A DNA stretch of 64,000 nucleotides from Trichormus variabilis 0441. GTDB lineage: Bacteria > Cyanobacteriota > Cyanobacteriia > Cyanobacteriales > Nostocaceae. The translations under genes and the position numbers were made by a program. Where the stretch lies: positions 5,212,501-5,276,500 of the forward strand of contig NZ_CP047242.1 of NCBI RefSeq assembly GCF_009856605.1. The letters run 5' to 3'. The notes below the pieces were generated by a model. That model was not told the origin of the DNA. It did not search any database and was given only the letters and a program-made list of their open reading frames with translations. Positions 3,661 to 50,997 of this stretch are shown here, piece by piece; position 1 is the first letter of the stretch; every line of letters begins with the position of its first letter.

Positions 3661-4239
3661 TTGTCGAGAAGTCTAAATTCATCCCGCAAATATGCAACGC
3701 CAAATAAACAAGCAATCCTCAATTCCCAACAAGACCAGCCGCAAGTTACAGTACCACAGATGGATGATTATACGATTGTCCATCTAGCAACTCATGCAGC
3801 CTTTGTGGTCGGTAAACCACAAGATTCATTTATTTTATTTGGTAATGGCGATCGCGTGAATCTGTCAGATATTGCCACATGGTCACTACCTCATGTAGAT
3901 TTGGCAGTTTTGAGCGCCTGTGAATCTGCTTCAGGTGGTAAGTTGAGCGATGGTCAAGAAATTTTAGGCTTTGGTTATCAGATACAAAAAACCGGCGCAA
4001 AGGCAGCTATGGCCTCGCTTTGGGCTGTAGATGATGGTGGCACTCAAGCATTAATGAGTATGTTTTATCACAAATTATCTACAGGCAAAGTAACTAAAAC
4101 CGTAGCTTTACGGCAAGCTCAAACAGCTTTAATTAGAGATATAGAGTCAACCAATCACATCATCCCTGTAGCCACCAAGGGTAACTTTCATCACCCCTAC
4201 TACTGGGCATCTTTCATTTTGATTGGGAATGGCTTGTAG
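3661..4239 (+). pseudogene. CHAT-domain protease remnant (C-terminal part only)
   Basis: Codes for the C-terminal ~160 residues of a CHAT (caspase HetF associated with TPRs) domain. The His-Cys pair is intact: IVHLATHAAF and LAVLSACESASGG, followed by GFGYQIQKTGAKAAMASLWAVDD and the terminal YYWASFILIGNG. CHAT proteins of cyanobacteria normally have a long TPR region and an earlier half of the CHAT domain; both are missing, and the frame begins with ~30 residues unlike the family just after a dispersed repeat. I read it as a 5'-truncated relic; a short expressed protein cannot be excluded because the remaining frame is clean. Confidence 0.75.
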
Positions 4240-9814: not shown

Positions 9815-11296
9815 CTAGACAAAGTGGATGTCGCTGACGCTGTAGCTAGTGGAAAAGATGGAAATGATATCAAAACGAGCAAATATAGAAGAGGATGTCA
9901 AATCACTCTGACTAGAAGCATCGTAGACACTATTGCCTTTCACAATCTGATTTGCAGTCGCAACTAACAGAGAATCATCGAAGGCTTTGCTGCTGTCTAA
10001 TAGGAATGGACTGGCGATCGCAATATAATTACTGCCGAAGATATAACCGTCTAGCTTTTTGAGTTGGATTTGATCCTGACCAGTTTGAAAATCAGTAATC
10101 AAGGCAAAGTCATTCAAACCAGCAAAACCGCCACCGCCTACATAGTAAGGATTTTTCGCATCTCCTAAGACGAATTTATCAGGATCTGCTCCTCCGGTTA
10201 GGGTATCTACTTCATTAATACCTGGTTGGAGACTGTTAGGATCAACGCCGATGATGGTATCTTTACCACCAAGACCAGAGATTTGATCATTGCCTCTACC
10301 ACCAATCAATAAGTTACTTTGGTTATTACCAACTATGGTGTCAGCTTGGGAAGTACCAGTGACGTTAACAAAGTTTTGAACGTTAAAGTTCAGTGTGCCT
10401 AAGACTGGAACACCGTTAACGATGAGACTATTAGTAGAGAGATTGACGTTAAATGATGTGGTTGTACTGGTACCGGTAGAACCGTCAATGGTGTTGGCTT
10501 GACGCGTTGCACCGATGATAGTTTCAATGTTGAGGATTTGATCTATACCTGCTACACCTTTATTGACAATACCAGTTGCTTGTAAGGCGATCGCAGTGCC
10601 TAAATTACTATAGTCGGCTGTATCAAGGTCAGTACCACCATCAAGGGTGTCATTACCAGTACCGCCGATCAGGACATCATTACCACCCTCGCCTTGTACG
10701 ATATCGTTACCATCACCTAATCGGGAAGTCGCAAGATTATTTCTACTCCCTCCACCTATTACATCATCACCAGCACCACCTTGTACGGTGTCATTACCGT
10801 TGAATCCAAAAATTTCGTCGTTACCTTGACCACCAATTAGCAGGTTATTGTTGTCATCACCAATAATGCTATCGTTTTGTGTAGTACCGATAACATTTAC
10901 AAACCTCTGCACTGTAAAATTCAATGTGCCAATGGTGGGAACTCCATTCACTATCAGACTGTTAGCGGAAAGATTAACGCTAACAGATGTAGTAGAACCT
11001 GTGGTGGTGGAAGTATCTATTGTATTGGCTTGTCCTTTCGCACCAATAATAGTTTCAATCCCATTGAGTGTGTCTGTTCCGGCTCTGCCTTTTTGAACAA
11101 TACCTGTTGCTTGTAAAGTAACAGCTTGACCTAATTCACTGTAGTCAACAGTATCAATTCCTGTATCACCAACTATTAAATCATTTCCAAAACTACCAAT
11201 GATTTGATCATTTCCTTGTAAGGCAATTATTAGATCATCAACCGCAGTACCAACGAGCAGATCATTAAATGGTGTGCCGATAATGGTGTTATACAC
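9815..11296 (-). CDS. RTX-type calcium-binding protein with internal duplication
   Basis: A 493-residue protein with hemolysin-type calcium-binding nonapeptides (GGQGNDEIFGFNGNDTV, GGRGNDQISGLGGKDTI and others). Two ~110-residue units are clearly duplicated: DYSELGQAVTLQATGIV... and DYSNLGTAIALQATGIV..., each ending in an RTX block. The last ~120 residues (DPDKFVLGD, FALITDFQTGQDQIQL) form the C-terminal domain common in cyanobacterial RTX proteins. There is no N-terminal signal peptide, consistent with type I secretion; no exporter genes are nearby. Function unknown, likely extracellular. GTG start at 11296 with AAAGGAAAA upstream. Confidence 0.85.
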   Translation of the reverse strand: MYNTIIGTPFNDLLVGTAVDDLIIALQGNDQIIGSFGNDLIVGDTGIDTVDYSELGQAVTLQATGIVQKGRAGTDTLNGIETIIGAKGQANTIDTSTTTGSTTSVSVNLSANSLIVNGVPTIGTLNFTVQRFVNVIGTTQNDSIIGDDNNNLLIGGQGNDEIFGFNGNDTVQGGAGDDVIGGGSRNNLATSRLGDGNDIVQGEGGNDVLIGGTGNDTLDGGTDLDTADYSNLGTAIALQATGIVNKGVAGIDQILNIETIIGATRQANTIDGSTGTSTTTSFNVNLSTNSLIVNGVPVLGTLNFNVQNFVNVTGTSQADTIVGNNQSNLLIGGRGNDQISGLGGKDTIIGVDPNSLQPGINEVDTLTGGADPDKFVLGDAKNPYYVGGGGFAGLNDFALITDFQTGQDQIQLKKLDGYIFGSNYIAIASPFLLDSSKAFDDSLLVATANQIVKGNSVYDASSQSDLTSSSIFARFDIISIFSTSYSVSDIHFV

Positions 11297-14641: not shown

Positions 14642-15822
14642 CAGAAGTGTTGAATATTAAGAAAAAGATGAGAAAAATAGCCCAAGATATGTTAATTTTG
14701 GGCTAGGTATTACAATATTTTGATTTCACAGTGATTATAAATTCATTTCCCAAAATTGTCAAAGATATCCTGAAAGGATTGCCAAAAAATGATTATCCAG
14801 TATTGAACAGTCGTCTGTTTTTTGAGTTCTGGCTATCTTACGTCTTGGATAATAGCTTAACAAGTATGCGAGGTTTATTTGCCAGGCTAAATAATACAGG
14901 ATTTGAGTTAGATATTTCTACTTTTTCTAAAGCAAATTTGCATCGAAGCCAAAAACCCTTTCAAGAAATTTACCAAAAACTAAATAAATTAGTCCAAAAT
15001 AAAGCTGAGAATAAACTCCATAATAAATATGCAATATGCCCGATTGATTCCACAGTTATTACATTAACTAGTAAGTTATTATGGGTGCTGGGTCATCATC
15101 AGGTAAAACTTTTTAGTTCTCTAAATTTAGCTACTGGAAGCCCAGAGGATAACTTGATCAACTTTGGACATGACCATGATTATAAGTTTGGTTCAAAAAT
15201 GATAGCTAATTTACCAACAAATGCTGTTGGGGTAATGGATAGGGGCTTTGCCGGATTAAAGTTTATTCAAGAACTAGTACAAGAAAACAAATATTTTGTT
15301 CTGCGGATAAAAAACAACTGGAAACTAGAATTTGAAGAGTCAAGCGGATTAATTAAAGTTGGTGCATCTGATGATGCCCAAGCCTATAGAGTAATTAATT
15401 TTTGTGATTTAGAAACAAAAACTGAATTTCGGTTAGTAACTAATTTACCAGCAGATGGAGAGGCTACTGTTAGTGATGATGATATTAGGGATATTTATCT
15501 ATTACGTTGGGGAGTTGAATTGTTGTGGAAATTTTTAAAGATGCACTTAAAACTTGACAAATTAATTACTAAAAATGTTAATGGTATCACCATACAAATC
15601 TACGTTAGCTTGATAGCATATCTGATTTTACAGCTTGTATCTATTCCCGAACAATGGGGACATACACTATTAGATAAATTCCGCTATTTACAATCCTGTA
15701 TGTGTCAGAAAATCAGTTATGTTCATTGGTTTGAAGAGATGATGTTATGTTGAATATTTTGGGCTTAATAGAGTTAATGTAACTAACTATGTAAAGTTTT
15801 GTATCAGCTTTCAACATTTTTG
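14642..15822 (+). mobile_element. IS4-family insertion sequence, 1181 bp, intact ends
   Basis: Left end CAGAAGTGTTGAA at 14642; right end reads, on the other strand, CAAAAATGTTGAA from 15822. These 13-bp terminal repeats differ at two positions and begin with CA, as in the IS4Sa-type subgroup. The flanking 9-bp direct repeats AATAAAACA (14633-14641 and 15823-15831) are perfect, indicating a recent or at least undecayed insertion. Just inside the left end, TAGCCCAA/TTGGGCTA (14678-14705) forms a hairpin before the transposase, as is common for blocking transcription from outside. Confidence 0.9.
14731..15753 (+). CDS. IS4-family transposase (DDE)
   Basis: 340 residues, with GTG start at 14731 because an in-frame TAG lies ~27 bases upstream and no ATG is available. 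The DDE residues are visible: first Asp in CPIDSTVITL, second Asp in VGVMDRGFAG, and the Glu in the signature Y-x2-R-x3-E-x6-K as YLLRWGVELLWKFLK. Family knowledge: cut-and-paste transposition through a hairpin intermediate. No frameshift or stop interrupts it, so it may be active. Codon use is more AT-rich than the neighbouring genes, consistent with transfer. Confidence 0.9.
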   Translation: MIINSFPKIVKDILKGLPKNDYPVLNSRLFFEFWLSYVLDNSLTSMRGLFARLNNTGFELDISTFSKANLHRSQKPFQEIYQKLNKLVQNKAENKLHNKYAICPIDSTVITLTSKLLWVLGHHQVKLFSSLNLATGSPEDNLINFGHDHDYKFGSKMIANLPTNAVGVMDRGFAGLKFIQELVQENKYFVLRIKNNWKLEFEESSGLIKVGASDDAQAYRVINFCDLETKTEFRLVTNLPADGEATVSDDDIRDIYLLRWGVELLWKFLKMHLKLDKLITKNVNGITIQIYVSLIAYLILQLVSIPEQWGHTLLDKFRYLQSCMCQKISYVHWFEEMMLC

Positions 15823-20548: not shown

Positions 20549-21976
20549 TTAAGACTCTAGAGTTATGGGTAAAGTGACAATAAAAGTAGTACCGTTACCT
20601 ACAGTGCTTTCGACTTGAATGTTACCGTGGTGATGTTCCACAATAGCTTGCGCGATCGCTAGTCCCAATCCTGAACCTGTAGCATTATCTTTACCTACAT
20701 TCCCACTCTTATGAGTGCGTGCAGGATCAACTCGATAAAAACGATCAAATAATCGCGGTAATGCTTCAGCCGGAATACCAATTCCCGTATCACTCACCTT
20801 AATTTGTAACTGCGATGTATTATAGCGAACTCTATCTACACGCACCAATTCCACATTCACCGCCCCACCTGGGGGTGTATAGTGCAAAGCATTACCAATT
20901 AAATTAGTGAATAATCGCACCAGTTGATCCCAATTCCCCACCAGTGTGAACCAATGTTCTAGTAATTCAGGACTAGTTTCAGAATCAGCAGGATCAATTA
21001 AGTGCAAATTCAGAGTAATTGCTTTTTCTGTAGCTACAAGCTGTTGTTCTTCCACCACATCCATCAGTAAAGCATCAAGGGGACAAGATGAAAAACCATC
21101 TCTGCTTACACCACTGTCCTGACGTGCTAGAAATAATAAGTCATTAACTAACTTACCCAAACGCTGGGTTAACCGTTCCACTACCTTTAATTGTTGGCGA
21201 TAATTGGAAGATGTAGCGGCTTCAGTTTCAGTCAACTCTAAATCAGCTAAAGCAACTTGGACATTAGTTTGAATCAAAGTGATGGGACTTCTGAGTTCAT
21301 GGGAAGCATCCGCAGTAAATTGCTTGAGACGTTGGTAAGATTCACCAACTGGTTCCATTGCTTTACCTGAGAGAAACCACCCACTGGCGGCAACAGAAAT
21401 CACCATTAACCCAGTTCCCAGCGCCAAATCAAAAATTAACTGGCGACTCGGTTTAGTCACTTCAAACCAAGGATGACTCACACGCAGATATCCCAAAACT
21501 TGCCGTCCAAATTCCACTCGTTGTGTAACTTGTCGCAATAATAGTCCTGAATCTTGATTGGTGAGTGCTGAGTTTTGCGTTTTTGAGTTTGTCCATCTGT
21601 CTTGCTTAAAAACGTGAACAGTTTCACCTGTGCGGTTACTGTGAATAGGAATATTTAAAGGTTCAGAAAAAGTTGACCAGATTAAGTCACCAGTAGGACT
21701 AAACCACTCTAGATCAATATGATCATCTTCTACAGTATTGGCATTGTTGCGAAAACTGGCTTCTACGTTAATGCGTAGCTTCTCAGGCTCACCGTTCACT
21801 GGTTCAATGACCAGCGATCGCTCTACAATTTCCACCACATGACTAAGAGTATCGTCAATCCGTTCCACCAATGTACTACGGACATATAAATACACACCAC
21901 TGGCAAACAACAGCAACAATACCGCAGTTACCGCAGTGTACCAAATAGCCAGACGACGACGAGTAGCTTGAAACAT
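20549..21976 (-). CDS. Sensor histidine kinase of a two-component system
   Basis: 475 residues. Two membrane helices (about residues 10-30 and 180-200) enclose a ~150-residue periplasmic sensor region; a short linker leads to the dimerisation box FTADASHELRSPITLIQ with the phospho-acceptor His. The N box (LFTNLIGNALHYTPPGG), G1 (VSDTGIGIP), F (RLFDRFYRVDP) and G2 (GSGLGLAIAQAIVEHHHG) boxes are all intact. It resembles the RppB/NrsS-type kinases of cyanobacteria. No response regulator adjoins it, so the partner is encoded elsewhere. Signal unknown. Confidence 0.9.
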   Translation of the reverse strand: MFQATRRRLAIWYTAVTAVLLLLFASGVYLYVRSTLVERIDDTLSHVVEIVERSLVIEPVNGEPEKLRINVEASFRNNANTVEDDHIDLEWFSPTGDLIWSTFSEPLNIPIHSNRTGETVHVFKQDRWTNSKTQNSALTNQDSGLLLRQVTQRVEFGRQVLGYLRVSHPWFEVTKPSRQLIFDLALGTGLMVISVAASGWFLSGKAMEPVGESYQRLKQFTADASHELRSPITLIQTNVQVALADLELTETEAATSSNYRQQLKVVERLTQRLGKLVNDLLFLARQDSGVSRDGFSSCPLDALLMDVVEEQQLVATEKAITLNLHLIDPADSETSPELLEHWFTLVGNWDQLVRLFTNLIGNALHYTPPGGAVNVELVRVDRVRYNTSQLQIKVSDTGIGIPAEALPRLFDRFYRVDPARTHKSGNVGKDNATGSGLGLAIAQAIVEHHHGNIQVESTVGNGTTFIVTLPITLES

Positions 21977-22506
21977 TTGCCTAATGTAAAAGAACTAAAT
22001 CTTTGTTAAGTGCTAAATTCTTGTTAAAGCAATGCAGTAAAGAATATTAACTGATGTAAGTAATATTTAAACCAAGTTTTTCCTCACTATCACTTAAGTA
22101 AATATGCTGAGGACGGAGACTAGTAGGTAAGAATATAGTAAATGAGCTAAATATCAAATTAGGCTATTTTTTATTGTTCAATAAGTTTTAATACTTCACC
22201 ACCTGAACTGCCAATTCAAATTTATATCTAACTTTATTTTCTATCATTTTACTGTTTATTCATTCAAATTTTATCAACTAATTATTTAAAGGATGAGTTT
22301 AGCCCTTATTCATGGGTAAGTTAATCTTGTTAGCTCCAATATTTAGATAATGGCTGTGAACTTTCCTCAAGAAGTTTTGATGACTCAAAATTTATTGAAG
22401 GCATACTTACAGTAAATTAATCTATCTATGAATTTAAATACACAATCAATGAGATTTTCTGTAAATAAATTGACTAACCAAAAACAACAATATCCCAGGT
22501 TTTACT
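21977..22506. other. 530-base AT-rich intergenic stretch
   Basis: Lies between the divergent sensor kinase and RTX genes and must carry both promoters. I see no reading frame, strong hairpin or known box in it. Confidence 0.4.
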
Positions 22507-24078
22507 ATGTCAGCAATCCAACTTTCTAGCATCCTCAATAATAATGTTTATACTGAAAACTTTAATACCTTACGTACTTCAGGTAACGCCACTTGGGTTA
22601 ATGACAGCACTATTAATGGATGGTACACAGCTCGTACTGGTACTGGAACCCAAATTTCTACAACTAATGGCAGCACTAGTACTGGAAACTTATACAGTTT
22701 TGGTACTGTAGGTAGCACCGATCGCGCCTTAGGTTCCATCGGTTCAAGTGGCTCCAGCGCCGGAAGTTTTTTCTGGGGTGTCCGCTTAGTTAATAATACA
22801 AACATCACCCTCGATTTTCTTAAAATCAGTTATGTCGGTGAACAATGGCGTAATAGCGGTGCAGGCGCTCAGACAGTAGATTTTCAGTATCAAGTCGGTG
22901 CTACTAGTATCACTGGCGGTACTTGGATAGATGCTAATAACCTTGACTTTACCAGTCCAGTAACTGGTGGTACTGCAACGGCTCTAGATGGTAATGCAGC
23001 AGCTAACCGTACTTCTATATCCGGTAAAATCAGTGGTCTGAATCTAGCACCAGGCCAAGAAATCTGGCTACGTTGGCGCGACATCGACCATACAGGTAGT
23101 GATCATGGTCTAGCCATTGATGACTTTTCTTTATCATTTGGTACTTTTGGTACAAACGGCAACGATACTCTACAAGGTGATGACTCTGAAGACTATATAG
23201 ACGGTTTAGCCGGTAACGACATCATCACAGGATTAAAGGGAGATGACATCCTCATAGGTGGTGGTGGTAATGATCAGTTCATCCTTAATGCAGGAGACGG
23301 AACAGATACCATCACTGATTTTGGTGGTGCAGGTACTCGCTTTAATCCATCCTCCAGTATCCGAGCAGAAATGGATCTCTTGAAATTTCAAGGCGCTGGT
23401 ATGACTGCTCAAAATATGCTCCTCACCCAAAATGGTGCTAATTTAGAAATTACCTTCGAGGGTGTGGCTAATACCAAGGTCATTTTGCAGAATTTTCAGA
23501 TGCAAAACCTGAATAACTTCCGGGAACCGCTCCTCAGTCAGCCGAAGATAGGCAACATTCTGTTTGAAGGAGACGGTAACACTATTCAAGATGTCTATGA
23601 TGTTTACACTGCTACCCAAACCGACAGAACCAACTTTAAAAATAATGCTGTCACTTTCCTGAATGACCTTGATAACTACTACGTTGGTCTCAATGGTTCT
23701 AACGATGTTATTAATGGTCAAGGAGGTAACGACACAATTGATGGTTTAAGTGGTAATGACATCCTCCGGGGTGGAGATGGTAATGATATTCTCATTGGTG
23801 GATTGGGTAATGATATTTTAGTTGGTGGTAGTGGTAATGACCTATTTGTTCTACAAGCAAAGGGTGGAACAGATATAATCAAAGACTTTGTAGACGGTCA
23901 AGACTTGATTGGTTTAGCAGGTGGTTTGACCTTTGGACAATTAACCATCACTCAAGGTACGGGTGTAGATATTAATAATACTTTAATTAGAATCACTAGT
24001 ACCAATGAATTAATAGGTATCTTAAATGGAGTTGTCAGCAGTAATATTACTGTCAGTGATTTCACTGCATTTACTTAA
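22507..24078 (+). CDS. RTX protein with nuclease-associated N-terminal beta domain
   Basis: 523 residues. Residues ~1-215 (NLYSFGTVGSTDRALGSIGS..., ISYVGEQWRNSGAGAQTVDFQYQVG, IWLRWRDIDHTGSDHGLAIDDFSLSF, given in parts) match the beta domain found at the start of large secreted nucleases of the ExeM/NucH kind, here without any nuclease domain. Two RTX blocks follow (about 217-255 and 395-450: LAGNDIITGLKGDDILIGGGGND; GGDGNDILIGGLGNDIL). The C-terminal ~60 residues are the domain shared by RTX type I substrates. No signal peptide. Probably secreted and calcium-stabilised; activity unknown. Confidence 0.85.
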   Translation: MSAIQLSSILNNNVYTENFNTLRTSGNATWVNDSTINGWYTARTGTGTQISTTNGSTSTGNLYSFGTVGSTDRALGSIGSSGSSAGSFFWGVRLVNNTNITLDFLKISYVGEQWRNSGAGAQTVDFQYQVGATSITGGTWIDANNLDFTSPVTGGTATALDGNAAANRTSISGKISGLNLAPGQEIWLRWRDIDHTGSDHGLAIDDFSLSFGTFGTNGNDTLQGDDSEDYIDGLAGNDIITGLKGDDILIGGGGNDQFILNAGDGTDTITDFGGAGTRFNPSSSIRAEMDLLKFQGAGMTAQNMLLTQNGANLEITFEGVANTKVILQNFQMQNLNNFREPLLSQPKIGNILFEGDGNTIQDVYDVYTATQTDRTNFKNNAVTFLNDLDNYYVGLNGSNDVINGQGGNDTIDGLSGNDILRGGDGNDILIGGLGNDILVGGSGNDLFVLQAKGGTDIIKDFVDGQDLIGLAGGLTFGQLTITQGTGVDINNTLIRITSTNELIGILNGVVSSNITVSDFTAFT

Positions 24079-24118
24079 ACGTATGAAAGGTTATTTATAA
24101 AGTATAAATAAAATTCCT

Positions 24119-24254
24119 GTAGTGGAGTGTCAAGGCTAAAGTAGTGGAAAAATATAGCTCTTGTGGGATGGGCTTCTAGCCCGTCTTGTGTCGGCAAGAT
24201 GCCCACACTGGAAGATAATCCCAGTGTAACATTTAAGGCTTGCCACGCTACTAC
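24119..24254. repeat. MITE-like element, 136 bp
   Basis: Terminal inverted repeats of about 18 bases: left GTAGTGGAGTGTCAAGGCT, right (read on the other strand) GTAGTAGCGTGGCAAGCC, with four mismatches. The inside has a second inverted pair, TGGGCTTCTAGCCCG against TGGGCATCTTGCCG. No coding capacity. It resembles small non-autonomous elements of Nostoc. Confidence 0.6.
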
Positions 24255-24332
24255 TGGATTATTATTTATCTGTTCAAAAATTAAAGATGATTCCTATATG
24301 CAGATTTTGTGGTAAAGATTTTGGTTCCCAAA

Positions 24333-24357
24333 ATAAGGACTAAAGTCCTTACTACGA
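24333..24357. repeat. Short palindromic repeat AAGGACT-AA-AGTCCTT
   Basis: A 16-bp palindrome followed by ACTACG; the same GTAGTAAGGACTTTAG-type sequence is found in another form at 39943-39988, so both belong to one dispersed family. Confidence 0.5.
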
Positions 24358-24587
24358 GCTTATTCATACTTTAAAATTGCTTTTGCAGACGATTTCCATC
24401 TGTTTTGCTTTAACCGTAAATCGACTGAGTAAGAAAAAAGAAATAAGTACTATTACTTATCATGAATATAGTAAATTTAAATACTTTCAGTAAAATTTCT
24501 GATGTTGCTTAAATATACAACGGGCTAAATTGTTTTTGCGCTTGTTCAGGCGTAGCAAAAAACCACACAAGTTATACCTACACGACC

Positions 24588-25172
24588 ATGAAAAAGATAT
24601 ATTCTTTAGCATCTTTAACATTGGGTACAGTAGCTTTAGTTAGCAATTTCTTTTCCGCACCCGCTAAGGCAGCCACCGCCGATGTAGACATCCAAGCCAA
24701 CGTTCCAGAAATTATCTTTTTGGAAACCTATGATACTCTCACCTATGACGTACAACCTACAGATTTAGCACCTGGCTATACTAATGGAGTTATCCAGACT
24801 GTAAATGGTACTTTTGATGCCGCAGGCACAGTTGATAATGCCCTCAACGGTGGTGCAAGTGCCACCGTTGCTAACGGCATTGTAACAATTACTAACCCTA
24901 TTACCCTGTACAAGACTTGGGGTATTACTAGCACTGGTAATATCGTACATGGGATTGCCAATAGTGGCACTGCTGTTGCCTTGGATTCAACTAGCGGCAA
25001 CAGTACAGTTTCCTTCACACCTACTCTAGCTTCCTCTACTGATTCTGCTCCTGGTTTAGATTATGCTAACGCTCTGACAGGAGACGTAAGCTTTGAGTTC
25101 GACTTTTCTGCCACCACCGAATCTGGTTTGCACACAGGCGGGACTATTACTGTCACAGCTACAGCTAACTAA
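24588..25172 (+). CDS. Secreted pilin-like subunit of a chaperone-usher-type locus
   Basis: 194 residues with a clear signal peptide (about 1-28, SLASLTLGTVALVSNFFSAPAKAA). The mature protein is small, rich in Thr, Gly, Ala and beta-strand-like, with no cysteine. It ends SGLHTGGTITVTATAN; the 181-residue protein two genes on ends with the matching SGIHSGSLQLTITEF. This kind of ending resembles the last strands of Spore-coat-U/DUF4402 fimbrial subunits (G-x-Y/H-x-G then alternating hydrophobics). A chaperone and an usher follow, so I infer a fibre subunit. Homology to known pilins is not proven. Confidence 0.55.
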   Translation: MKKIYSLASLTLGTVALVSNFFSAPAKAATADVDIQANVPEIIFLETYDTLTYDVQPTDLAPGYTNGVIQTVNGTFDAAGTVDNALNGGASATVANGIVTITNPITLYKTWGITSTGNIVHGIANSGTAVALDSTSGNSTVSFTPTLASSTDSAPGLDYANALTGDVSFEFDFSATTESGLHTGGTITVTATAN

Positions 25173-25461
25173 GATATCTGCATTTAGTTTCCCAGAATAG
25201 AGTCGATAATGGCAATTGATATCGGCTCAGAGCAAAATTTTTGTGTTAGGTAAATAGTTTTCATGTGTATCTACGCCCTAACCCATAGAGCTGACAGTCC
25301 GCACACATAAACAAGCGTAGTCCATCTAAGACACTTGTAGATTCACGTACTCAGACTTAGTGACTCTGAATCTAAGCCATGAGTTATAAAGTTTAATTAT
25401 TTCTGCTCTGTCCGTAATCAATTGCCATATTTTTTAGTTATCTGATTGAAATAATTGCTGA

Positions 25462-26007
25462 ATGAATAATTTGATGCAGCACCGGTATTGTCTCGGCATA
25501 ACAACGATTATTCTGGCTCTCTATCAAATCTGTACTGCGGGTATAGCATCTGCTAATCCAACTTGTACAAGTACTAATGACGGCTGTATTGTCATTGAAA
25601 ATGAAATACTAGAAATTAGCCAAGAAGATATTGTGCCAGATGGTCGAACTGTGAATTTAAGTGGTCATGGAGTGATAGGTGAAACTTCCTTAAATACATC
25701 TAACCCGTTCTTAGTTAATACACAAATTAGCAAGACAATTAATAATCTCTGGCAGTTCCAAATAGATAGTAATAACCTTAATAGTTTACAGGTACAATAC
25801 ACCCCTTCTGGTAATTTTTCACTTACACAAGGAAGCTCCGTAATTATAGTAGATATTGACCCTCTAGCACCCATTGTTATCGGACAAGGTGCAACACTGG
25901 ATAGGGTGATAGTCCAAGGAGGAGCAACTTTTACTTTAGACTTATCACAAGTAACAAAATCCGGTATTCATTCTGGTAGTTTGCAGTTAACAATTACAGA
26001 ATTTTAA
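25462..26007 (+). CDS. Second secreted pilin-like subunit
   Basis: 181 residues. Signal peptide about 1-30 (CLGITTIILALYQICTAGIASA). The mature part holds two cysteines close together (NPTCTSTNDGCIVIE) that could form a disulphide, then beta-rich sequence and the ending SGIHSGSLQLTITEF, as in the 194-residue protein upstream. It ends 22 bases before the chaperone gene, so the two are almost certainly co-transcribed. It may be a tip or minor subunit. Start ATG at 25462 (a second ATG four codons on is also possible). Confidence 0.55.
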   Translation: MNNLMQHRYCLGITTIILALYQICTAGIASANPTCTSTNDGCIVIENEILEISQEDIVPDGRTVNLSGHGVIGETSLNTSNPFLVNTQISKTINNLWQFQIDSNNLNSLQVQYTPSGNFSLTQGSSVIIVDIDPLAPIVIGQGATLDRVIVQGGATFTLDLSQVTKSGIHSGSLQLTITEF

Positions 26008-26029
26008 ACAATTAATCTATTTATTATTA

Positions 26030-27001
26030 ATGATGAACAAGCAGATAAAGCTAACTAAAACACTAAGAAATGTTGGGCTGAGTATCTTAGCAACAGCGAG
26101 CGCAGTTGCTTTAGCTTGTAATTCTACTTCAGCTATTTCTATTGGTGTTAGCCCTCCACGCTTTGAGTTAAAGCTTGACCAAAGAAGGTCTAGTACTCAA
26201 TCTTTTCAAGTAGTAAATAACGGGAAAAAACCATCGACTTTTAGAATCTATACTCAAGATTGGACACTCGACGAAAAAAATAATATTAAAGCCGTACCAA
26301 CTTCTGAACAGTCGCTGTCTTCATCAATTGTAGTTAACCCAGTTAGGTTTACTATTCCCCCAGGAAAAGCTCAAAGTGTCAGATTTTCCGTGCGTCCCCG
26401 TGTACAGCCTAAATCCGGAGAACATCGAGCTTTTATCTTTATAGAAGAAGTTCCTTCTGAAGATAGAGACGCAAGTCCTAAAAGTGTAGCTGATGTGAGA
26501 GTTGTTGGACGTTTTGGGGTTGCTGTCTATGGTTATGTTGGTGAAATCAAGAGAGTTGCTTCACTCAATAAAATTACTGTAGATACTAAAACTGGCCCCG
26601 TACAAGCAAATTTTGATATTTCTAGTCAAGGTAATGGCTATGTGCGGATGGCTGGTCAATATGCTATTTGGCCGGCTGCTAAATATCCAGGTGCTAATGC
26701 TACTAAACAAATTGCCAATTTAGAAAAGAAAACTACAAAATTACCAGAAAATGTCTTGAGTGCTGGTTTCTTACCTAGAAGCCCCATATTACCAGATACT
26801 CGTCGTCAAATCCCTCTCCGAATACCACAAAAACTAACACCTGGTCAATATGTTTTAGACATTAACGGTGAATTGAATGGGATCAAAATTGATCAAGGTA
26901 TCCCTTTCAGTGTGTCAGTTTTAGCGAGTACTCCTCGAAAGCCTTTAACCAGTCCTGCTGATTCGTCTCGTCGTAACATCATTCCCAGACGCACAAGATA
27001 G
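26030..27001 (+). CDS. PapD-like periplasmic pilus chaperone
   Basis: 323 residues. Signal peptide about 1-35 (ending STSA). The N-terminal Ig domain has the pilus-chaperone pattern: ISIGVSPPRFELKLDQRRSSTQSFQVVNNGKKPSTFRIYTQDW, then VVNPVRFTIPPGKAQSVRFSVRP and SGEHRAFIFIEEVP (in pieces), matching the P-x-x-x-x-L-x-P-G-x-x-Q-x-V-R and G-E-h-R elements of archaic fimbrial chaperones. These lend a strand to unfolded subunits in the periplasm. The C-terminal domain is long for PapD (~150 residues) and ends in a basic RRTR tail. Lies 22 bases after a subunit gene and 116 before the usher-like gene. Confidence 0.8.
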   Translation: MMNKQIKLTKTLRNVGLSILATASAVALACNSTSAISIGVSPPRFELKLDQRRSSTQSFQVVNNGKKPSTFRIYTQDWTLDEKNNIKAVPTSEQSLSSSIVVNPVRFTIPPGKAQSVRFSVRPRVQPKSGEHRAFIFIEEVPSEDRDASPKSVADVRVVGRFGVAVYGYVGEIKRVASLNKITVDTKTGPVQANFDISSQGNGYVRMAGQYAIWPAAKYPGANATKQIANLEKKTTKLPENVLSAGFLPRSPILPDTRRQIPLRIPQKLTPGQYVLDINGELNGIKIDQGIPFSVSVLASTPRKPLTSPADSSRRNIIPRRTR

Positions 27002-27117
27002 CATTTGTTGGTACATCAACTGCGATTTTTTAATTGATTTAACTACTTTCTTCCCCAACTACTTTGCAGTCAAGAAATTTCTCGGCTGCTTATAGGAACA
27101 TTTGTGTTTAATTAACT

Positions 27118-30060
27118 ATGTTTTACGATCGCCCCCCAATTTCCCCCCCACCAATCACACCACATTCGTTAGTAAGTTCTATTCCCACACCCCAAGATAA
27201 TGATCATAGCCAAACGGCTGATACATTTAAGTATGCGATCGCTACTCCTAGTGAACTAGAAACATTTCCCAATGAGTTCTCTACAGGTGTTTCACCGCAG
27301 CTTTTTACAACAGAACATTTTAGTGAGGAACTCATTACTCAACATATAGTTAGCGAACTACCTGTTGGTAATACGAGTAACAATAACGTCACCAATATCC
27401 CAGGAATATCTACTGTTGACAATATTAAACAAGCTCCTAAAGCTGAATCTTCTCCACCAAATTTGGGTAAACCGGAAAAAGATAATGGTGTCACAGCACC
27501 AGTAAATACAACAGATACAATTACTTTTACCGAAACTTCTAGTTCTGGTATAGAAACTTTATTACTAGGGGTAATTATTAACCGTAGAGAAGTTGGTAGT
27601 TTAGATGTTATACGTCGAGGAAATACCTTACTAGTACCTTTAGAAAACTTTGCTCAACTTACAGGCTTAACCATTACAACAACTGATGATACTACAGAAA
27701 TCAAAACACCTCTAGGTGCTGTGAAACTAGCGTCTAGTGAACTAGAGATAATTCAGGGAATTACCCATATTAGCGATTCTTTATTACAAGAAAAACTCAA
27801 TACCACAATCGAGTTGAGGTCTTTAGAAGCAGCTTTGATTGTTGGGTTACCTTGGTTATCAGGTAGTAGAGAAGCGCGAAATGCAGCAATTGATCTAGAA
27901 CCAGAAGTTAAAGCACCGCTAAGTGGATTGTCTAGTTTTAGACAGGAACTTAATGTTGTTAATGATTCTGGTGGTACTCGGTTCCAGAGTTATAGTTTGT
28001 TGGGTGGGAGACTCGCTGGCGGGACTTGGCGTATACGTTTAAATAATAATTTTGAAAATTCTCCCAACTTAGCTGAATATTTTTTCTATAAACGTAATGG
28101 TAGATTTCTTTATCAATTAGGTCGTCAACAAATAAGTGTACATCCCCTATTAAATGGGCAAATTTTAACGGGCGCACAATTTGGTTACACTAATTTACCC
28201 GCAGATCGCTATAGACAAAGTTATAGTGCTAATCAGTTAATACCAAGAAGTTCTCGTTCTGTACAAACATTTCGAGGCGAAGTTCCTCCAGCCAGTTTTG
28301 TGCAACTGCGAGTTGGTAGTAGAATAATTGCCCAACAGCAGGTAGGATTTGATGGAAGATACGAATTTTTTGATGTAAATTTGCCTGCTGGACAAAATAA
28401 TTTAATTGAAGTTTTGGTTTACGATCGCAACAATTTCAGTGTACCTATTGAAATTCGCTCTGTGAGACTCAACACCTCAGATTTACTATTACCTCCAGGT
28501 GGTAATGTACAGTTATTGGGTTTGGGTTTTAGTGGTAACTTAGCTCAAAATGCTTTTTCTGACGATTATAATACCTCTGATTCTGGTAGCCTTGTGGGCT
28601 TTTATCAATTTAGGCAAGGTCTATCAGATAATTTTACTGTTGAAGCTGGACTACAAGCAATTCCGAATACTTTCCAAACTCAATTAGGTGCAATTTGGCG
28701 TATAGCCAATCCTGTGATTTTATCGGGTAGCGTGGGTACATCTTTTGGTAAGCTTGCTTATAATGCAGATTTAGATGTTCAGTTAGGTGGATTAGATATA
28801 AATGCTAATTCTCAGCTATTCCCCGAAGGTTATAGAAGTGATAATGGCTCAAGAGAAAGATATAATCATAGCTTAGAAGTAGGTTATCGCTTCAATAGTA
28901 ATTTGAGGTTGGGAGTTTTAGCACGTAGTCGCAAATCTGATTCAAACTCAACTGAATACATTGCACCTACTTTCTATTTCCGTCCCTCTAATAGTTTATA
29001 TTTTACAGGTAGACCTGACACTGAAGGGCAATATCTGTTTTATTCGGCATATCAACCTAATGCTTTAACTCGATTATCATTTAGTAGCTTTGGTGATAAC
29101 TATGCTACGGATTTCAGTTATAAATTAAACAATAATTATCAGTTATCTTTGGGTAGTGATTTCGGTGGTAATCTACCAGCTCGCTACCTTGCTACAGTAA
29201 ATTATTATCCCAGAAATATTAGAGGATTTAGTTGGAGGTTAGGGCTTGCTTATCGGGATGGCGATGTGGGGCCAATTGTTGGTGCTAGCACCCAATTGAT
29301 ACCGGGTCTATTTGCTAGAGTCGAATATCAAGCTATACCTTCCAGGGCTAGAAGTAATTTTGGTGGATGGGGAGATGATCGCCTGACAATTTCTCTAGTA
29401 TCCGATTTATCATTCTCTGATGGTAGAATCTCCCCAGGTAACTTTAACTCTTTTGGGAAAGATAAGGGAGCGATTTCTGGACGTATTTTTGTCGAAGGAA
29501 GTAAAGAAAGCTTTGATTTAGGCGAGTCTAGTGTCCGAGTTACAGACAAATACGGTAAGATTATCGGTGGTGCGAGAACCAATGCTCAGGGTAACTTCTT
29601 TGTCGGTAATTTGCCAGAGGGTGTTTACATAGTTGAGGTCGTTCCCAAAGACTTACCCATAGAACTTACCCCCCTGAAAACTACCACAATTGCCGAGGTT
29701 GCGGGTGCGGCGGTAACTAAGTTGAGTTTCCCTATGAGGGTTGAATATGGCATTGCTGGACGCATTACAGATAGTGCAGGTCTGCCCGTACCGGGTTTAG
29801 CGGTAGAACTTGTTAATGCTGAAGGTAAAAAAGTTGGAACAGGCGCAACTGACGAATTTGGTCTTTATCGTGTAGATGGTCTTCCGGCTGGTCAATACAC
29901 ATTACAGGTTCCCAATCAAAGCAACATCAATCGTAGCAATAGCCTGCCCAAACGAGCTATAACTATTGAGAACGATTTTGCCTACGACCAAAATCTGCAA
30001 TTACCCATTTCCGCAGCCACTAAAGATGCACAGGAAGCACCAAAGTTACCTAATCCTTAA
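27118..30060 (+). CDS. Usher-like outer-membrane protein with carboxypeptidase-regulatory C-terminus
   Basis: 980 residues. About 1-140: Pro/Thr/Asn-rich, probably disordered. About 145-250: ETLLLGVIINRREVGSLDVIR onward, like the N-terminal domain of archaic ushers. About 381-460: plug-like segment FRGEVPPASFVQLRVGSRI, VGFDGRYEFFDVNLPAGQNN and LNTSDLLLPPGG, the order seen in usher middle domains. Flanking beta-rich stretches (about 255-380 and 460-780, e.g. GFYQFRQGLSDNFTVEAGLQ) would form the barrel. About 784-875 and 878-960: two carboxypeptidase-regulatory-like beta domains (GAISGRIF...; YGIAGRITD...). It should export and assemble the secreted subunits. Oddity: no signal peptide is visible at the only available start; a stop lies just upstream in frame. 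Confidence 0.75.
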   Translation: MFYDRPPISPPPITPHSLVSSIPTPQDNDHSQTADTFKYAIATPSELETFPNEFSTGVSPQLFTTEHFSEELITQHIVSELPVGNTSNNNVTNIPGISTVDNIKQAPKAESSPPNLGKPEKDNGVTAPVNTTDTITFTETSSSGIETLLLGVIINRREVGSLDVIRRGNTLLVPLENFAQLTGLTITTTDDTTEIKTPLGAVKLASSELEIIQGITHISDSLLQEKLNTTIELRSLEAALIVGLPWLSGSREARNAAIDLEPEVKAPLSGLSSFRQELNVVNDSGGTRFQSYSLLGGRLAGGTWRIRLNNNFENSPNLAEYFFYKRNGRFLYQLGRQQISVHPLLNGQILTGAQFGYTNLPADRYRQSYSANQLIPRSSRSVQTFRGEVPPASFVQLRVGSRIIAQQQVGFDGRYEFFDVNLPAGQNNLIEVLVYDRNNFSVPIEIRSVRLNTSDLLLPPGGNVQLLGLGFSGNLAQNAFSDDYNTSDSGSLVGFYQFRQGLSDNFTVEAGLQAIPNTFQTQLGAIWRIANPVILSGSVGTSFGKLAYNADLDVQLGGLDINANSQLFPEGYRSDNGSRERYNHSLEVGYRFNSNLRLGVLARSRKSDSNSTEYIAPTFYFRPSNSLYFTGRPDTEGQYLFYSAYQPNALTRLSFSSFGDNYATDFSYKLNNNYQLSLGSDFGGNLPARYLATVNYYPRNIRGFSWRLGLAYRDGDVGPIVGASTQLIPGLFARVEYQAIPSRARSNFGGWGDDRLTISLVSDLSFSDGRISPGNFNSFGKDKGAISGRIFVEGSKESFDLGESSVRVTDKYGKIIGGARTNAQGNFFVGNLPEGVYIVEVVPKDLPIELTPLKTTTIAEVAGAAVTKLSFPMRVEYGIAGRITDSAGLPVPGLAVELVNAEGKKVGTGATDEFGLYRVDGLPAGQYTLQVPNQSNINRSNSLPKRAITIENDFAYDQNLQLPISAATKDAQEAPKLPNP

Positions 30061-30284
30061 ATCTGCGTGTTGTTGAATTGATGTATGAATAAGGAAAAGC
30101 AAAGATAAAAATCTTTACCTTTTGGGAAAATTTAATTTTATTTCGGCAACAACGCCTAATTTTAAATATTTAAGTGTGGCAATTATATTTATTAGCCAGA
30201 TACTTCACCTTTATGCCCCATTTCATCTACGATATGAATTGTTCTCCCCTTCAATGGGCTGCATTAGGTTAATCTGCGATCGCT

Positions 30285-32495
30285 ATGCCTAAATCAAAAA
30301 AAAGCTCTAATTCTATTAATTTAAACGATCCTCAATACTATCTTAACCGGGAGTTAAGCTGGTTAGAATTTAATAACCGAGTTTTACATGAAGCTTGCGA
30401 CTCACGCACAAAACTATTAGAAAGACTTAAGTTTTTGGCAATTTTTAGTTCCAACTTAGATGAGTTTTTCATGGTGCGGGTGGCAGCTCTAAAACAACAG
30501 GTAGAAGCAAAGGTCAGCAAACTAACTCCCGATGGACGCACACCCCAACAACAATTAAATGATATTCGCCTGAATCTCATACCCCAAGTTACAAAACAGC
30601 ATCAACATTTTGAACAAATAATTCGCCCCTTGTTAGCTAGTCATGGTATCCATATTTTGGATTACATTAACTTGACTCAAAAACAACGCAGTTATCTAGA
30701 TAACTATTTTGAAGATCAAATTTTCCCGGTTCTGACACCCTTAGCCGTTGACCCCAGTCATCCCTTTCCCTACATTTCTAATCTCAGCTTGAATTTGGCT
30801 GTTGTGGTCAAGAACCCAGAGACAGAAGAAGAATTTTTTGCCAGAGTCAAAGTTCCCAGCGTTCTCCCTCGGTTTTTGCCCCTACCGCCAGAGTTAGCAT
30901 TTCAAGAGAACGGACAAGCAGCTAACTGGGTAGGTGTACCATTAGAGCAGGCGATCGCTCATAATCTAGATTCCCTCTTTCCAGGGATGAATATCCAAGA
31001 ATATCATCCCTTCCGCATTACCCGCGACGCTGACCTAACTCTGGAAGAAGATGAAGCTGATGACTTGTTATTGGCAATAGAACAAGAACTGCGAAAACGG
31101 CGTATGGGTGGTTCTCCCGTCAGAATTGAAATTCAATCCCAAACGCCAGAACTCATCCGCACCAGGTTACTGCAAGACCTAGACCTAACAGAACAAGATG
31201 TCTACGAAGTCGATGGTCTGTTAGGACTGCGTGATTTGATGTCCTTTATGGCTTTGCCGTTGCCAGAACTCAAAGATCCACCACGCCAATCTGTAGTACC
31301 GATGCGTCTACAACGATTGCGAGAACCAAACTTAAATCCTGATGTTTTGGAGTTAGAGGAAGGTAAAGACTTTTTCTCGGTCATTCGAGAAAAAGATTTG
31401 TTCGTACACCATCCCTATCAATCTTTTTCTGCCACAGTCGTGCGCTTTATCACCCATGCAGCCCACGACCCAAATGTCTTAGCAATAAAGATGACATTGT
31501 ATCGTACTTCCGGCGATTCACCCATCGTTAATGCTTTAATTGCGGCGGCAGAAAATGGTAAACAAGTATCAGTCCTAGTAGAACTTAAAGCACGATTTGA
31601 TGAAGAAAATAATATTTATTGGGCAAGGCGATTAGAAAGAGTTGGTGTTCACGTTGTCTATGGCTTAGTAGGTCTGAAAACTCACTGCAAAACGGTGATG
31701 GTAGTGCGACGAGAAAAAGACCGGATGCGGCGTTATGTACATATTGGAACTGGCAATTACAACCCAAAAACAGCCAGACTATATACAGATTTAGGATTGT
31801 TTAGTTGTCGGGAAGAATTGGGTGCGGATATTACAGATTTGTTTAATTTCTTGACTGGTTATTCACGGCAAAAGTCTTATCGAGAATTGCTAGTTGCGCC
31901 TGTAAATATGCGCGATCGCTTTTTGGAGTTAATACGTCGGGAAATCACCAACGTACAGAATGGATTTTCAGGTCGTATTGTTGCCAAAATGAACTCTCTT
32001 GTTGATCCACAAATTATTGCGACTTTGTACGAAGCTTCCCGTGCTGGCGTACAAATTGATTTAATTATTCGAGGCATTTGCTGTTTGCGCCCAGGTATTA
32101 AAGATATCAGTGAGAATATTCGCATTATCAGCATTATCGGCCGCTTTTTAGAACACTCCCGCATCTATTACTTCCATAACAATGGACAAGAAGAAATTTT
32201 TATTGGTAGTGCAGATTGGATGAGCCGTAACTTAGATCGGCGAGTAGAAGTAATTACCCCTATAAAAGACCCAGATATTGCTAAGGATTTGCAAGAAATA
32301 TTGGGAATTTTGCTAGCTGATAATCGTCAAGCTTGGGATTTACAAGCTGATGGTAGTTACATTCAGCGCCTTCCGGGAGAAAATTGTCCAGAAACTAACT
32401 CACAGAAAACTCTCATGAATATGGCGTTACGTTCAACGGGAATCGCTACAAATCTGATCGATTCACCAAAAAGTCCTGCATATAAAGACAATTAA
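30285..32495 (+). CDS. ppk: Polyphosphate kinase 1
   Basis: 736 residues, full length. Reversibly transfers the gamma phosphate of ATP to polyphosphate, the phosphate and energy store of cyanobacteria. All domains are present: N-terminal (YLNRELSWLEFNNRVLHEA), head, and the two phospholipase-D-like C-terminal domains with the autophosphorylated His in GLKTHCKTVMVVRRE and the binding segment YVHIGTGNYNPKTARLYTDLG; a second C-terminal motif is IFIGSADWMSRNLDRRVEV. ATG at 30285, just after a HIP1 site. No ppx or pho genes adjoin it; no Pho-box was recognised in the 224 bases upstream. Confidence 0.97.
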   Translation: MPKSKKSSNSINLNDPQYYLNRELSWLEFNNRVLHEACDSRTKLLERLKFLAIFSSNLDEFFMVRVAALKQQVEAKVSKLTPDGRTPQQQLNDIRLNLIPQVTKQHQHFEQIIRPLLASHGIHILDYINLTQKQRSYLDNYFEDQIFPVLTPLAVDPSHPFPYISNLSLNLAVVVKNPETEEEFFARVKVPSVLPRFLPLPPELAFQENGQAANWVGVPLEQAIAHNLDSLFPGMNIQEYHPFRITRDADLTLEEDEADDLLLAIEQELRKRRMGGSPVRIEIQSQTPELIRTRLLQDLDLTEQDVYEVDGLLGLRDLMSFMALPLPELKDPPRQSVVPMRLQRLREPNLNPDVLELEEGKDFFSVIREKDLFVHHPYQSFSATVVRFITHAAHDPNVLAIKMTLYRTSGDSPIVNALIAAAENGKQVSVLVELKARFDEENNIYWARRLERVGVHVVYGLVGLKTHCKTVMVVRREKDRMRRYVHIGTGNYNPKTARLYTDLGLFSCREELGADITDLFNFLTGYSRQKSYRELLVAPVNMRDRFLELIRREITNVQNGFSGRIVAKMNSLVDPQIIATLYEASRAGVQIDLIIRGICCLRPGIKDISENIRIISIIGRFLEHSRIYYFHNNGQEEIFIGSADWMSRNLDRRVEVITPIKDPDIAKDLQEILGILLADNRQAWDLQADGSYIQRLPGENCPETNSQKTLMNMALRSTGIATNLIDSPKSPAYKDN

Positions 32496-48391: not shown

Positions 48392-49339
48392 TCAAATTTG
48401 AATAAACCAAGCGCACAAAGAGGCGACTTGGTCAGGCTGAGTGAGGTTTGCTGCATTAGTAAGAATGCCAGAATTTAGTTGATGCCAAATTTCTTCTGCC
48501 ATGCTTTTTTCTATAGCAGATCCCACAAAAAAAGTATATGGCTTAAGACTGTGCTGATCAAATGCTGTTCTGATTCTGGCTAAAGCACTGTTCGCTGTTT
48601 TCCAATGTTCGTCTGCTCCTGCTGGGTCAATACCGCCCTTTAATTCACCTAGAGCTATGTAGATATTTGGGTTTGAAATTATATTCTTTTCAATTTCATT
48701 TTGTCTGCAATCAAACAAACAAATATCAATGTTTTTCCGTACAATCGGAACATTTACATTATAAACGAAAGTCCTATTCCTACCCTCCAAGTTCCAACTT
48801 AATCCCCTAAGACCTAATTCAATATCTGTATCATCATCAGGTTGATTAAGCCAAGTTTTGCTGTTTTTATCTAGCCATTTATAAGAAGTATTCGATAGAG
48901 TTAGTGCAGAAATAATATATCTTGCAAATTTACGTTCAGCAAGGATACCACCAACATTTCGCATTGATCCACCAAGTGTATCTCCACGCGTAAGTAGGAA
49001 ACGATAAACTAGTTCTTCTACAAAGTTTTCTCCAGCAGGCTCTAGGAAGTTTTGAATTAAACCTTCTATTGCATCGACCTTATCTTGTTCTTGAAGGTGT
49101 CCAGCAGCTTTATCTGATACCCCAGAGGCAGCTAGTAGAGTAGGTCTAATATCCCTCATTTGTAAAAGGTCTTGAGGCCTTTCAATTTGGTTTACTCGGA
49201 TCCTTAATGCTCTTGCCTGCTCAACAAATGGTGTTGCTTTTCGATTTCTTTCTAAAGCTAAAGCAACAAATCCTGCTCGGACTTCTTGATATGGAGTCAC
49301 AAGATCATGATTGCTTTTAAGATGATATTGATATGACAC
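48392..49339 (-). CDS. AvaI/BsoBI-type restriction endonuclease (C/YCGRG)
   Basis: 315 residues. It matches the BsoBI/AvaI family: DLVTPYQEVRAGFVALALERNRKATPFVEQARALR at the start (in blocks), the Asp of IDICLFD, then the E-x-K motif in LGELKGGIDPAGADEHWKTA, with a His 13 residues after the Glu exactly as the BsoBI catalytic set (Asp, Glu, Lys, His). It should cut C^YCGRG. The frame reaches 49366, but a GTG at 49339 has GGAG nine bases upstream and overlaps the methyltransferase stop as TAGTG, so I chose it. The methylase is directly upstream. Confidence 0.88.
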   Translation of the reverse strand: MSYQYHLKSNHDLVTPYQEVRAGFVALALERNRKATPFVEQARALRIRVNQIERPQDLLQMRDIRPTLLAASGVSDKAAGHLQEQDKVDAIEGLIQNFLEPAGENFVEELVYRFLLTRGDTLGGSMRNVGGILAERKFARYIISALTLSNTSYKWLDKNSKTWLNQPDDDTDIELGLRGLSWNLEGRNRTFVYNVNVPIVRKNIDICLFDCRQNEIEKNIISNPNIYIALGELKGGIDPAGADEHWKTANSALARIRTAFDQHSLKPYTFFVGSAIEKSMAEEIWHQLNSGILTNAANLTQPDQVASLCAWFIQI

Positions 49340-50787
49340 TAGGGTTTTCTCCAAACATATACACATTTGCGAAGTGTCTTTCTTCCATGTATCCCCATTT
49401 GTTGGCTACTGTTACCTTTACCAATAGGTAGGACAAGAATTTTCTCCACATTAAAACCAATTTTTTCTGCAATATTAGAAAGAATTAAATCAACCGAAAT
49501 ATCAATACCTGCATAGCGAACATTATCATTTACCATAAATAAAGGTGATCCATTTTTTAAAACTCTAAAACATTCTGTAATAACGCAAGCCATTTCGTAG
49601 AAATAGCCTTTTACCATGCGAGGAATACCGTTATTATTAAGTTTTTTTCTTTCAAGCTCTCGCTCAAGAAAGCGCAAAATACTCTGTAACAATTCTTGTT
49701 GATCAAGTATACGTAATGCTTCCTGCCAATTGTTAATAAGAAACTTTTCTTTGTTTTCAACAGTACAACTCAGCATATCTTGTCTGAGTTGCACTATATC
49801 TCTTTCTCCCACTCCTAATAGAGCTAATTCTAGAGCGTATGTACGTGTATAGTCATAACGATTACAATAGGGTGGAGAAGTAATGATACAGTCGTAAAAA
49901 TCTTGTTCAAATTCAGGCAGAATTTTAAGACATGAAGCATTAAATAGATTAATTTCACTTCTTTGAGTCCCATAACAAAATGATGTATTATTTATCATGT
50001 CAAAGGAATCATTCAAAATTAATTTTATTTGGTCAGTAATTGCTTCATCGAAATCCAGGATTTTACCTTTATCAAATTTATATGATCCACCTTTCCTAAA
50101 TGCTCTTTTATCCCAACGTAGATACTGTCCATCTTTCCGGGTATAGCTGATAGATTCAAGAATACACAATAGAGCAAAACGGAGAACTTGTTTCACAACC
50201 ATATTCTCTTTTTCTATAGAAAATAAAAATCTCTCTATTGATGCTTCTGTTTCATGAGGATAAGCTCCGTCGGTAATTCTTAAACGATTAAGATGTTTTC
50301 TACTATTATGCTGATTCCAAGGTTTTTGTTTGTACCATTCAATCAATCTCAAAAAATCTTCTCGACGGAATTGTCGCTGGATTATTTTCCTTACTTTAAT
50401 AATCTCTTGACCAATAGGTAACAATTCTATACCATCTGCTTGAATACCAGCATCACTACAGGCAAATAGCATTGTTCCTGCTCCTGCGAAGGGGTCAAGA
50501 ATCCTCTCAAATGGTTTTTTCTCGTACTCAAATATTAACTGATTGACCAAATCAACTGAAAAAGCTTCTTTATATTTAAACCAGCGATACTGAGGTTTTA
50601 ACTTATTAGCTTGAAAACTAACTATTTTTCGATTTAAACTTTGATGCAATCGCATCTTATCTCTAAAGCGTTGCTCAAGTGCTTTATTGAATCGAAAAAT
50701 TTCTTGTACAAAAGAATCCATCTCTTGAGCAAGATCAGTCGGGTCAGTCTTTATTTCTGTTGGAATCTCAAGCTCAAATGAAGTCAT
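49339..50787 (-). CDS. DNA methyltransferase of the AvaI-type system
   Basis: 482 residues. Motif I is ILDPFAGAGTMLFACSDAGI (AdoMet binding, about residue 105), motif IV is IITSPPYCNRYDYTR (about 310); SPPY is usual for N4-cytosine (sometimes N6-adenine) methylases. The ~190 residues between them should recognise DNA, giving the order I-TRD-IV (alpha-type). It protects host CYCGRG sites from the adjacent nuclease. TTG at 50808 opens the frame, but ATG at 50787 (MTSFELEI) is the likely start. The stop overlaps the endonuclease start by one base. AT-rich compared with neighbours, as for a transferred system. Confidence 0.85.
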   Translation of the reverse strand: MTSFELEIPTEIKTDPTDLAQEMDSFVQEIFRFNKALEQRFRDKMRLHQSLNRKIVSFQANKLKPQYRWFKYKEAFSVDLVNQLIFEYEKKPFERILDPFAGAGTMLFACSDAGIQADGIELLPIGQEIIKVRKIIQRQFRREDFLRLIEWYKQKPWNQHNSRKHLNRLRITDGAYPHETEASIERFLFSIEKENMVVKQVLRFALLCILESISYTRKDGQYLRWDKRAFRKGGSYKFDKGKILDFDEAITDQIKLILNDSFDMINNTSFCYGTQRSEINLFNASCLKILPEFEQDFYDCIITSPPYCNRYDYTRTYALELALLGVGERDIVQLRQDMLSCTVENKEKFLINNWQEALRILDQQELLQSILRFLERELERKKLNNNGIPRMVKGYFYEMACVITECFRVLKNGSPLFMVNDNVRYAGIDISVDLILSNIAEKIGFNVEKILVLPIGKGNSSQQMGIHGRKTLRKCVYVWRKP

Positions 50788-50997
50788 TTTATATTTTTCT
50801 TGTAACAAAGAGGCAATCTAGGATTCTATCATAACAAATCACTATCATTTATCAATTAAGATTTAAACCCTATTTTTTTATAGACTGATTGACAATGGTC
50901 GAATCCTGATTATACTTTGTTATGCTTTTACAGTAATCAAGTTAAATATTGAATACATTCCTTCTGTGACTCATTATAAATAATAATATTATTCTCC

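Follow-up and report, generated by a model that had tools for sequence, protein, structure and literature searches.

A probable divergent chaperone-usher assembly system in Trichormus variabilis and other Nostocales

The stretch of Trichormus variabilis 0441 DNA analysed here (contig NZ_CP047242.1, positions 5,212,501 to 5,276,500; 64,000 nucleotides of a 7.1-Mb genome, hereafter the window) contains four consecutive plus-strand open reading frames (ORFs) which raise the question whether a Pfam-negative outer-membrane barrel, a PapD-type chaperone and two small proteins with signal peptides can together constitute a chaperone-usher pathway. In gene order, these are the candidate major subunit S1 (194 aa; 24588-25172), the second candidate subunit S2 (181 aa; 25462-26007), the periplasmic chaperone (323 aa; 26030-27001) and the usher-like outer-membrane protein (980 aa; 27118-30060). 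A divergent chaperone-usher assembly system is, with high probability, the answer; the evidence comes from gene order and its conservation, the predicted fold of the usher, the family membership of the chaperone and its conserved anchor arginine, the homology of S1 and S2, and purifying selection. The initial annotation had already read the locus as two small signal-peptide proteins followed by a PapD-like chaperone and an usher-like protein; all four are present at coordinates that agree with the ORF list, and the 22-base spacing given for S2 and the chaperone is exact, since S2 ends at 26007 and the chaperone starts at 26030.

The 980-aa protein has the predicted layout of an usher. Its AlphaFold2 model has the parts by which an usher of the chaperone-usher pathway is recognised: an N-terminal domain (residues 145-243; 27550-27846), six barrel strands (residues 270-358), a plug inserted after strand 6 (residues 385-449; 28270-28464), the remaining barrel, and C-terminal beta domains (residues 805-961; 29530-30000). 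The plug-like segment that had been noticed in the sequence thus reappears in the model as beta elements at residues 385-449. All 18 best Foldseek matches in the PDB are FimD or PapC, the ushers of type 1 and P pili, which have the same predicted fold and domain order at identities of 11-15%; the classical chaperone type that accompanies them is not indicated for the present system. In profile comparisons with hhalign, the usher aligned with ushers of a second Pfam-negative cyanobacterial type (type B, see below) at Prob 99.6 over 567 columns, and with ushers of the PF00577 family at Prob 91.8 across the plug and part of the barrel. Pfam itself gives a different picture: the Usher model PF00577 has no match in the window usher or elsewhere in the T. 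variabilis genome, and at E ≤ 1 none of 41 core sequences matches it, and the only matches above the Pfam cut-off are of the CarboxypepD_reg type in the C-terminal domains, the best at residues 879-931. Searches of PDB sequences with the proteins of the system likewise found no usher, chaperone or pilin. Among the homolog names shown, most read carboxypeptidase-regulatory-like, Cna B-type or hypothetical, and one JGI label (homolog P0021) reads "outer membrane usher protein FimD/PapC".

The chaperone is identified by sequence. It matches PapD_N at 30.9 bits (cut-off 23), as do 40 of 42 members of its family at E ≤ 0.1, and over 218 columns the family profile aligned with the archaic-type chaperones of six cyanobacterial loci (Prob 97.3, pairwise E 2.1e-11). 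This alignment extends across both domains and points to the two-domain layout of PapD-like chaperones, the absence of which had been named as an argument against the assignment. Of the two chaperone motifs proposed initially, GEHRA was confirmed and "PIPPG" was off by one letter, the true reading being T-I-P-P-G-K-A-Q-S-V-R-F. The arginine within GEHRA, Arg133, is invariant in 42 rows and maps, via the archaic-type cyanobacterial chaperones, to an arginine of CsuC that is counted from the alignment as Arg89; in CsuC, Arg89 is described as the invariant residue of domain 1 that anchors the carboxylate of the subunit (PMC4654587). Arg133 therefore corresponds to the domain-1 carboxylate anchor of the non-classical (archaic and alternative) chaperones. 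The CsuC alignment ends in domain 1; the invariant Tyr274 and Arg206 (conserved in at least 90%) are candidates for the domain-2 residues Tyr196 and Arg174 of CsuC.

S1 and S2 are the candidate subunits; in the chaperone-usher pathway, subunits have an incomplete Ig fold and a donor strand at the N-terminus. S1 combines a signal peptide with a pilin-like beta fold in its predicted model, whose structural matches are weak and nearly all to chaperone-usher pilins; close to the N-terminus, the S1 family shares the consensus V-x-V-x-V-x-V-P-E, an alternating V-x-V pattern resembling a donor strand. S2 is homologous to S1 and through this homology would share its likeness to pilins. Neither protein of the window has a credible Pfam match. 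The SCPU model (PF05229) is listed for none of the 44 S1-family and none of the 43 S2-family rows and nowhere in the T. variabilis genome, and hhalign against an SCPU-type set gave Prob 17.1 for S1 and 2.9 for S2. An assignment to DUF4402 (PF14352) was considered and rejected, with the best score across 118 genomes of the same family below the curated cut-off (22.9 vs. 25.2 bits); weak matches to this model, all below the cut-off where shown, occur in two S1 and two S2 members, a genome scan gives a match for the S1 protein of locus L014 (genome G060; E 5.8e-4), and S1 and S2 of the window have none.

The four genes occur together in relatives; their failure to do so had been named as an argument against the assignment. 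A search of 118 sampled genomes of the same family found the chaperone in 69 at E ≤ 0.001; a close class (E ≤ 1.6e-73) occupies 47 places in 45 genomes, and the remaining matches form a distant class at approximately E 1e-12 and weaker. Within 1.5 kb downstream of the chaperone, tblastn located an usher in 27 of 30 loci; the other three (L005-L007) have no tblastn match and yet contain, at that place, an open frame with an M-I-Y...P-P start. Named genomes were scanned separately with the usher and two peptide patterns, which yielded 59 loci, nearly all by name from Nostocales, plus UBA8803. The chaperone is present in all 59, S2 in all 59 (one cut by a contig end) and S1 in 58, and 58 loci have the whole order S1-S2-chaperone-usher, the exception (L084) lying at a contig end. 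Position in the locus was the basis for assigning S1 and S2 in these relatives, and alignment followed; when the window proteins served as BLAST queries, S1 was recovered in 46 of the 59 loci and S2 in 39. In a sample of the phylum, the usher core was matched in 15 of 386 genomes, with 13 strong matches, all in the family of the window, and two weak ones (G309, G006) through type B; a Microcoleus protein (P0132) also belongs to the usher family. The two homolog searches each scored approximately 8,000 candidates and gave the best 120 of 182 and the best 120 of 142 matches, and they therefore place no bound on the extent of the family.

Chaperone-usher genes are described from Synechocystis and other cyanobacteria (PMC4390875), from Nodularia (PMC5853447, PMC3610870) and from Thermosynechococcus (PMC7005997), the subunits, where named, being of SCPU type; the Synechocystis ushA mutant is stated to keep flocculation and motility (PMC6755745). 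The present system is therefore a variant rather than a new kind, and it is divergent in all four parts. The open-licence PMC literature yielded no paper on this chaperone-usher type. With the archaic (sigma) systems, that is Acinetobacter Csu, Synechocystis CccS/CccP/UshA (slr1667, slr1668, slr0019) and Nodularia BMF81_00267-00270, it has in common the logic of subunit, chaperone and usher, the anchor arginine of the chaperone (CsuC Arg89) and a similar Gly-x-Tyr-type last strand of the subunits; to the cyanobacterial PF00577-type systems it is linked by detectable homology of the chaperone and of the usher plug and barrel. Unlike the archaic systems, it has neither SCPU subunits nor a PF00577 match, and its usher begins with a disordered region of approximately 140 aa (longer in many relatives), has no recognisable signal peptide and ends in domains that Pfam reads as CarboxypepD_reg. 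Since SCPU subunits were tested for and not found, an assignment to the SCPU/sigma systems does not apply.

The nearest usher relatives found are those of type B (L127, L128, L129), which resemble the present system in a chaperone gene directly upstream and, in the one usher scanned (L110), in a C-terminal CarboxypepD_reg match and the lack of a PF00577 match. They differ in having ordinary signal peptides (3 of 3) and in their subunits (hhalign with S1, Prob 29). Type B loci (L110, L111, L112, L127, L128, L129) occur in several cyanobacteria; beside a chaperone they encode an usher of approximately 870-925 aa and, in L128 and L127, two to three small subunits.

In the proposed pathway, S1 and S2 would be exported by Sec via their signal peptides and held in the periplasm by the chaperone, with the GEHRA arginine binding the C-terminal carboxylate of the subunit as CsuC Arg89 does; the usher N-terminal domain would receive the chaperone-subunit complexes, and the plugged barrel would open. 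Donor-strand exchange, in which the N-terminal stretch of one S1 fills the groove of the next, could then build a thin surface polymer, in which S2 may be a minor, tip or terminating subunit.

The usher does not conform to this scheme in one respect: its start. Signal peptides were scored by a simple rule (not SignalP) that asks for 10 residues within the first 45 with a mean hydropathy of at least 1.8, preceded by K or R. The rule was satisfied by S1 in 58 of 59 cases, S2 in 53 of 60, chaperones in 59 of 60, type B ushers in 3 of 3 and PF00577 ushers in 5 of 7, and by none of the 57 ushers of the Nostocales loci (the window and 56 others); among the database ushers listed from the first homolog search, 3 of 119 passed, all on a stretch that begins at residue 36. 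A signal peptide is a trait of ushers in this pathway, although a secondary one, export being the requirement. Its position is occupied by a conserved proline-rich element (M-F-Y...P-P...P-P-P; 27118-27156): across 57 sequences the usher starts with M-[LIF]-Y-x-A-L-P-P-T-P-P-P and is variable after these 12 residues, and an M..P..P start is found in 142 of the 151 database ushers listed from both homolog searches. Since the outgroup usher from UBA8803 (L083) starts with a full signal peptide, the loss in Nostocales looks derived; in a Microcoleus homolog the corresponding stretch is short and hydrophobic.

A frameshift or an upstream start that would supply a signal peptide was sought in all three frames of 58 sequences (the window and 57 loci, without L076 and L096, in which no start fitted the motif), and candidates appeared in six, none of them the window, where an in-frame TAA precedes the usher ATG with two codons in between. 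The candidate in L083 is the real usher start, those in L043 and L062 are out of frame, and in L050, L064 and L093 in-frame GTG or TTG codons could extend the usher by a hydrophobic stretch, so that the absence of a signal peptide may not hold in every species; in 52 of the 58 sequences, at most 30 in-frame codons lie between the usher start and a preceding stop. The large barrel might even be exported in Nostocales with no classical Sec signal peptide at all. In this speculative proposal, to which we assign a rather low probability, the conserved M-L-Y-x-A-L-P-P-x-P-P element would descend from an ancestral signal peptide and serve as a new export signal, or as a tail that binds a chaperone, held on a tether long enough to span the thick cell wall of cyanobacteria.

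The missing signal peptide also admits a bleaker reading, in which export of the usher has ceased and the operon survives as the relic of a decaying pathway. The contrast between the ushers and their exported partners, the full signal peptide retained in the outgroup and a broken usher frame in one locus (L086) are compatible with decay. However, 57 of the 59 loci have an intact usher frame, and in a further one (L084) it stays open as far as the end of the contig; a simple count for the window and L038 gives dN/dS of approximately 0.15 overall and 0.08 in residues 144-800, indicative of purifying selection on the core; the first 12 residues are themselves conserved; and a relic would not be expected to retain all four genes across an order. 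Decay is accordingly very unlikely. Even less credit is due to the idea of a porin- or TonB-type barrel that happens to adjoin a PapD-like chaperone. TonB-type transporters, porins and VDAC/TOM40 barrels do appear among the fold matches, and that the VIA list contains no other barrel families does not count against them; yet FimD and PapC rank first with far longer alignments, several of which take in the plug and the C-terminal domains, the predicted barrel is not of the plugless type, and the hhalign results tie it to type B and PF00577 ushers.

A more serious competitor concerns the product rather than the machinery: the same proteins might build a non-fibrillar coat or capsule-like layer, perhaps on heterocysts, akinetes or hormogonia, comparable to the spore coat of Myxococcus, the formation of which uses a chaperone-usher-like pathway according to one report (PMC7005997). 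A coat would suit a locus with only two subunits of one-domain size, in which the genes from S1 to the usher include no larger tip adhesin with the usual two domains. The likeness of the subunit models to fibre-forming pilins is one of class and fits fibre and coat alike, and since the chaperone class is found in only 45 of the 118 genomes, it is not a general requirement for heterocysts or akinetes. A coat is a minority possibility, and a divergent assembly system with a fibre as its inferred product, as in the initial annotation, is preferred. Such a fibre would likely be an adhesion or matrix structure of filamentous cyanobacteria whose genes can now be named. This system escapes surveys of appendages based on the Usher and SCPU models of Pfam, as PF00577 ushers occur in 12 of the 118 genomes vs. 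45 for the chaperone class, and an usher without a signal peptide poses a direct, testable question on the export of an outer-membrane barrel.

Between chaperone and usher, 28 nt before the usher ATG, lies an inverted repeat (27066-27089, plus strand) with a 6-bp stem that includes one G-T pair; it has no other close match in the genome. In relatives, an inverted repeat lies 23-66 nt upstream of the usher start, recognised by eye in approximately 22 of 55 sequences, and in a subset the arms covary, differing in sequence and remaining complementary (GCAGTC/GGCTGC, GTAGCC/GGCTAC, CAGCCTA/TAGGCTG, TTACTGCCTAGA/TCTAGGCGGTGA). For 15 of the 55 sequences, no more than 5% of 40 mononucleotide shuffles equalled the best stem, which was not in every case this hairpin; the window's own stem is unexceptional (0.275). 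Rfam has no match in 21900-30400, and promoter- and terminator-like sites show no excess over shuffles. A frameshift or hopping signal was rejected because no signal-peptide-like ORF precedes the hairpin in the window; an operator or an RNA hairpin that tunes usher expression is possible.

The surroundings of the operon are partly conserved. A polyphosphate kinase gene lies downstream in 46 of the 59 loci, and a histidine kinase gene divergent to the operon (20549-21976), a possible regulator, upstream in 37; several flanks are too short to tell in either case. A large same-strand ORF precedes S1 in 24 loci, and the six scanned comprise three RTX-repeat and three PPC-domain proteins; that of the window, directly upstream of S1, is a 523-aa RTX-repeat protein by Pfam (22507-24078, plus strand), an optional neighbour that could be a companion surface protein. 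Another RTX-repeat protein is encoded on the minus strand at 9815-11296. Elsewhere, the window contains a type II restriction-modification pair (48392-50808), with a BsoBI-family endonuclease (PF09194, E 3.3e-166) beside a DNA methylase, which we take to be AvaI-like; two transposase genes of the DDE_Tnp_1 and DDE_3 types (14731-15753 and 61942-63012); and a 192-aa CHAT-domain ORF (3661-4239) that covers only positions 120-289 of the 289-position Pfam model and is possibly a remnant.

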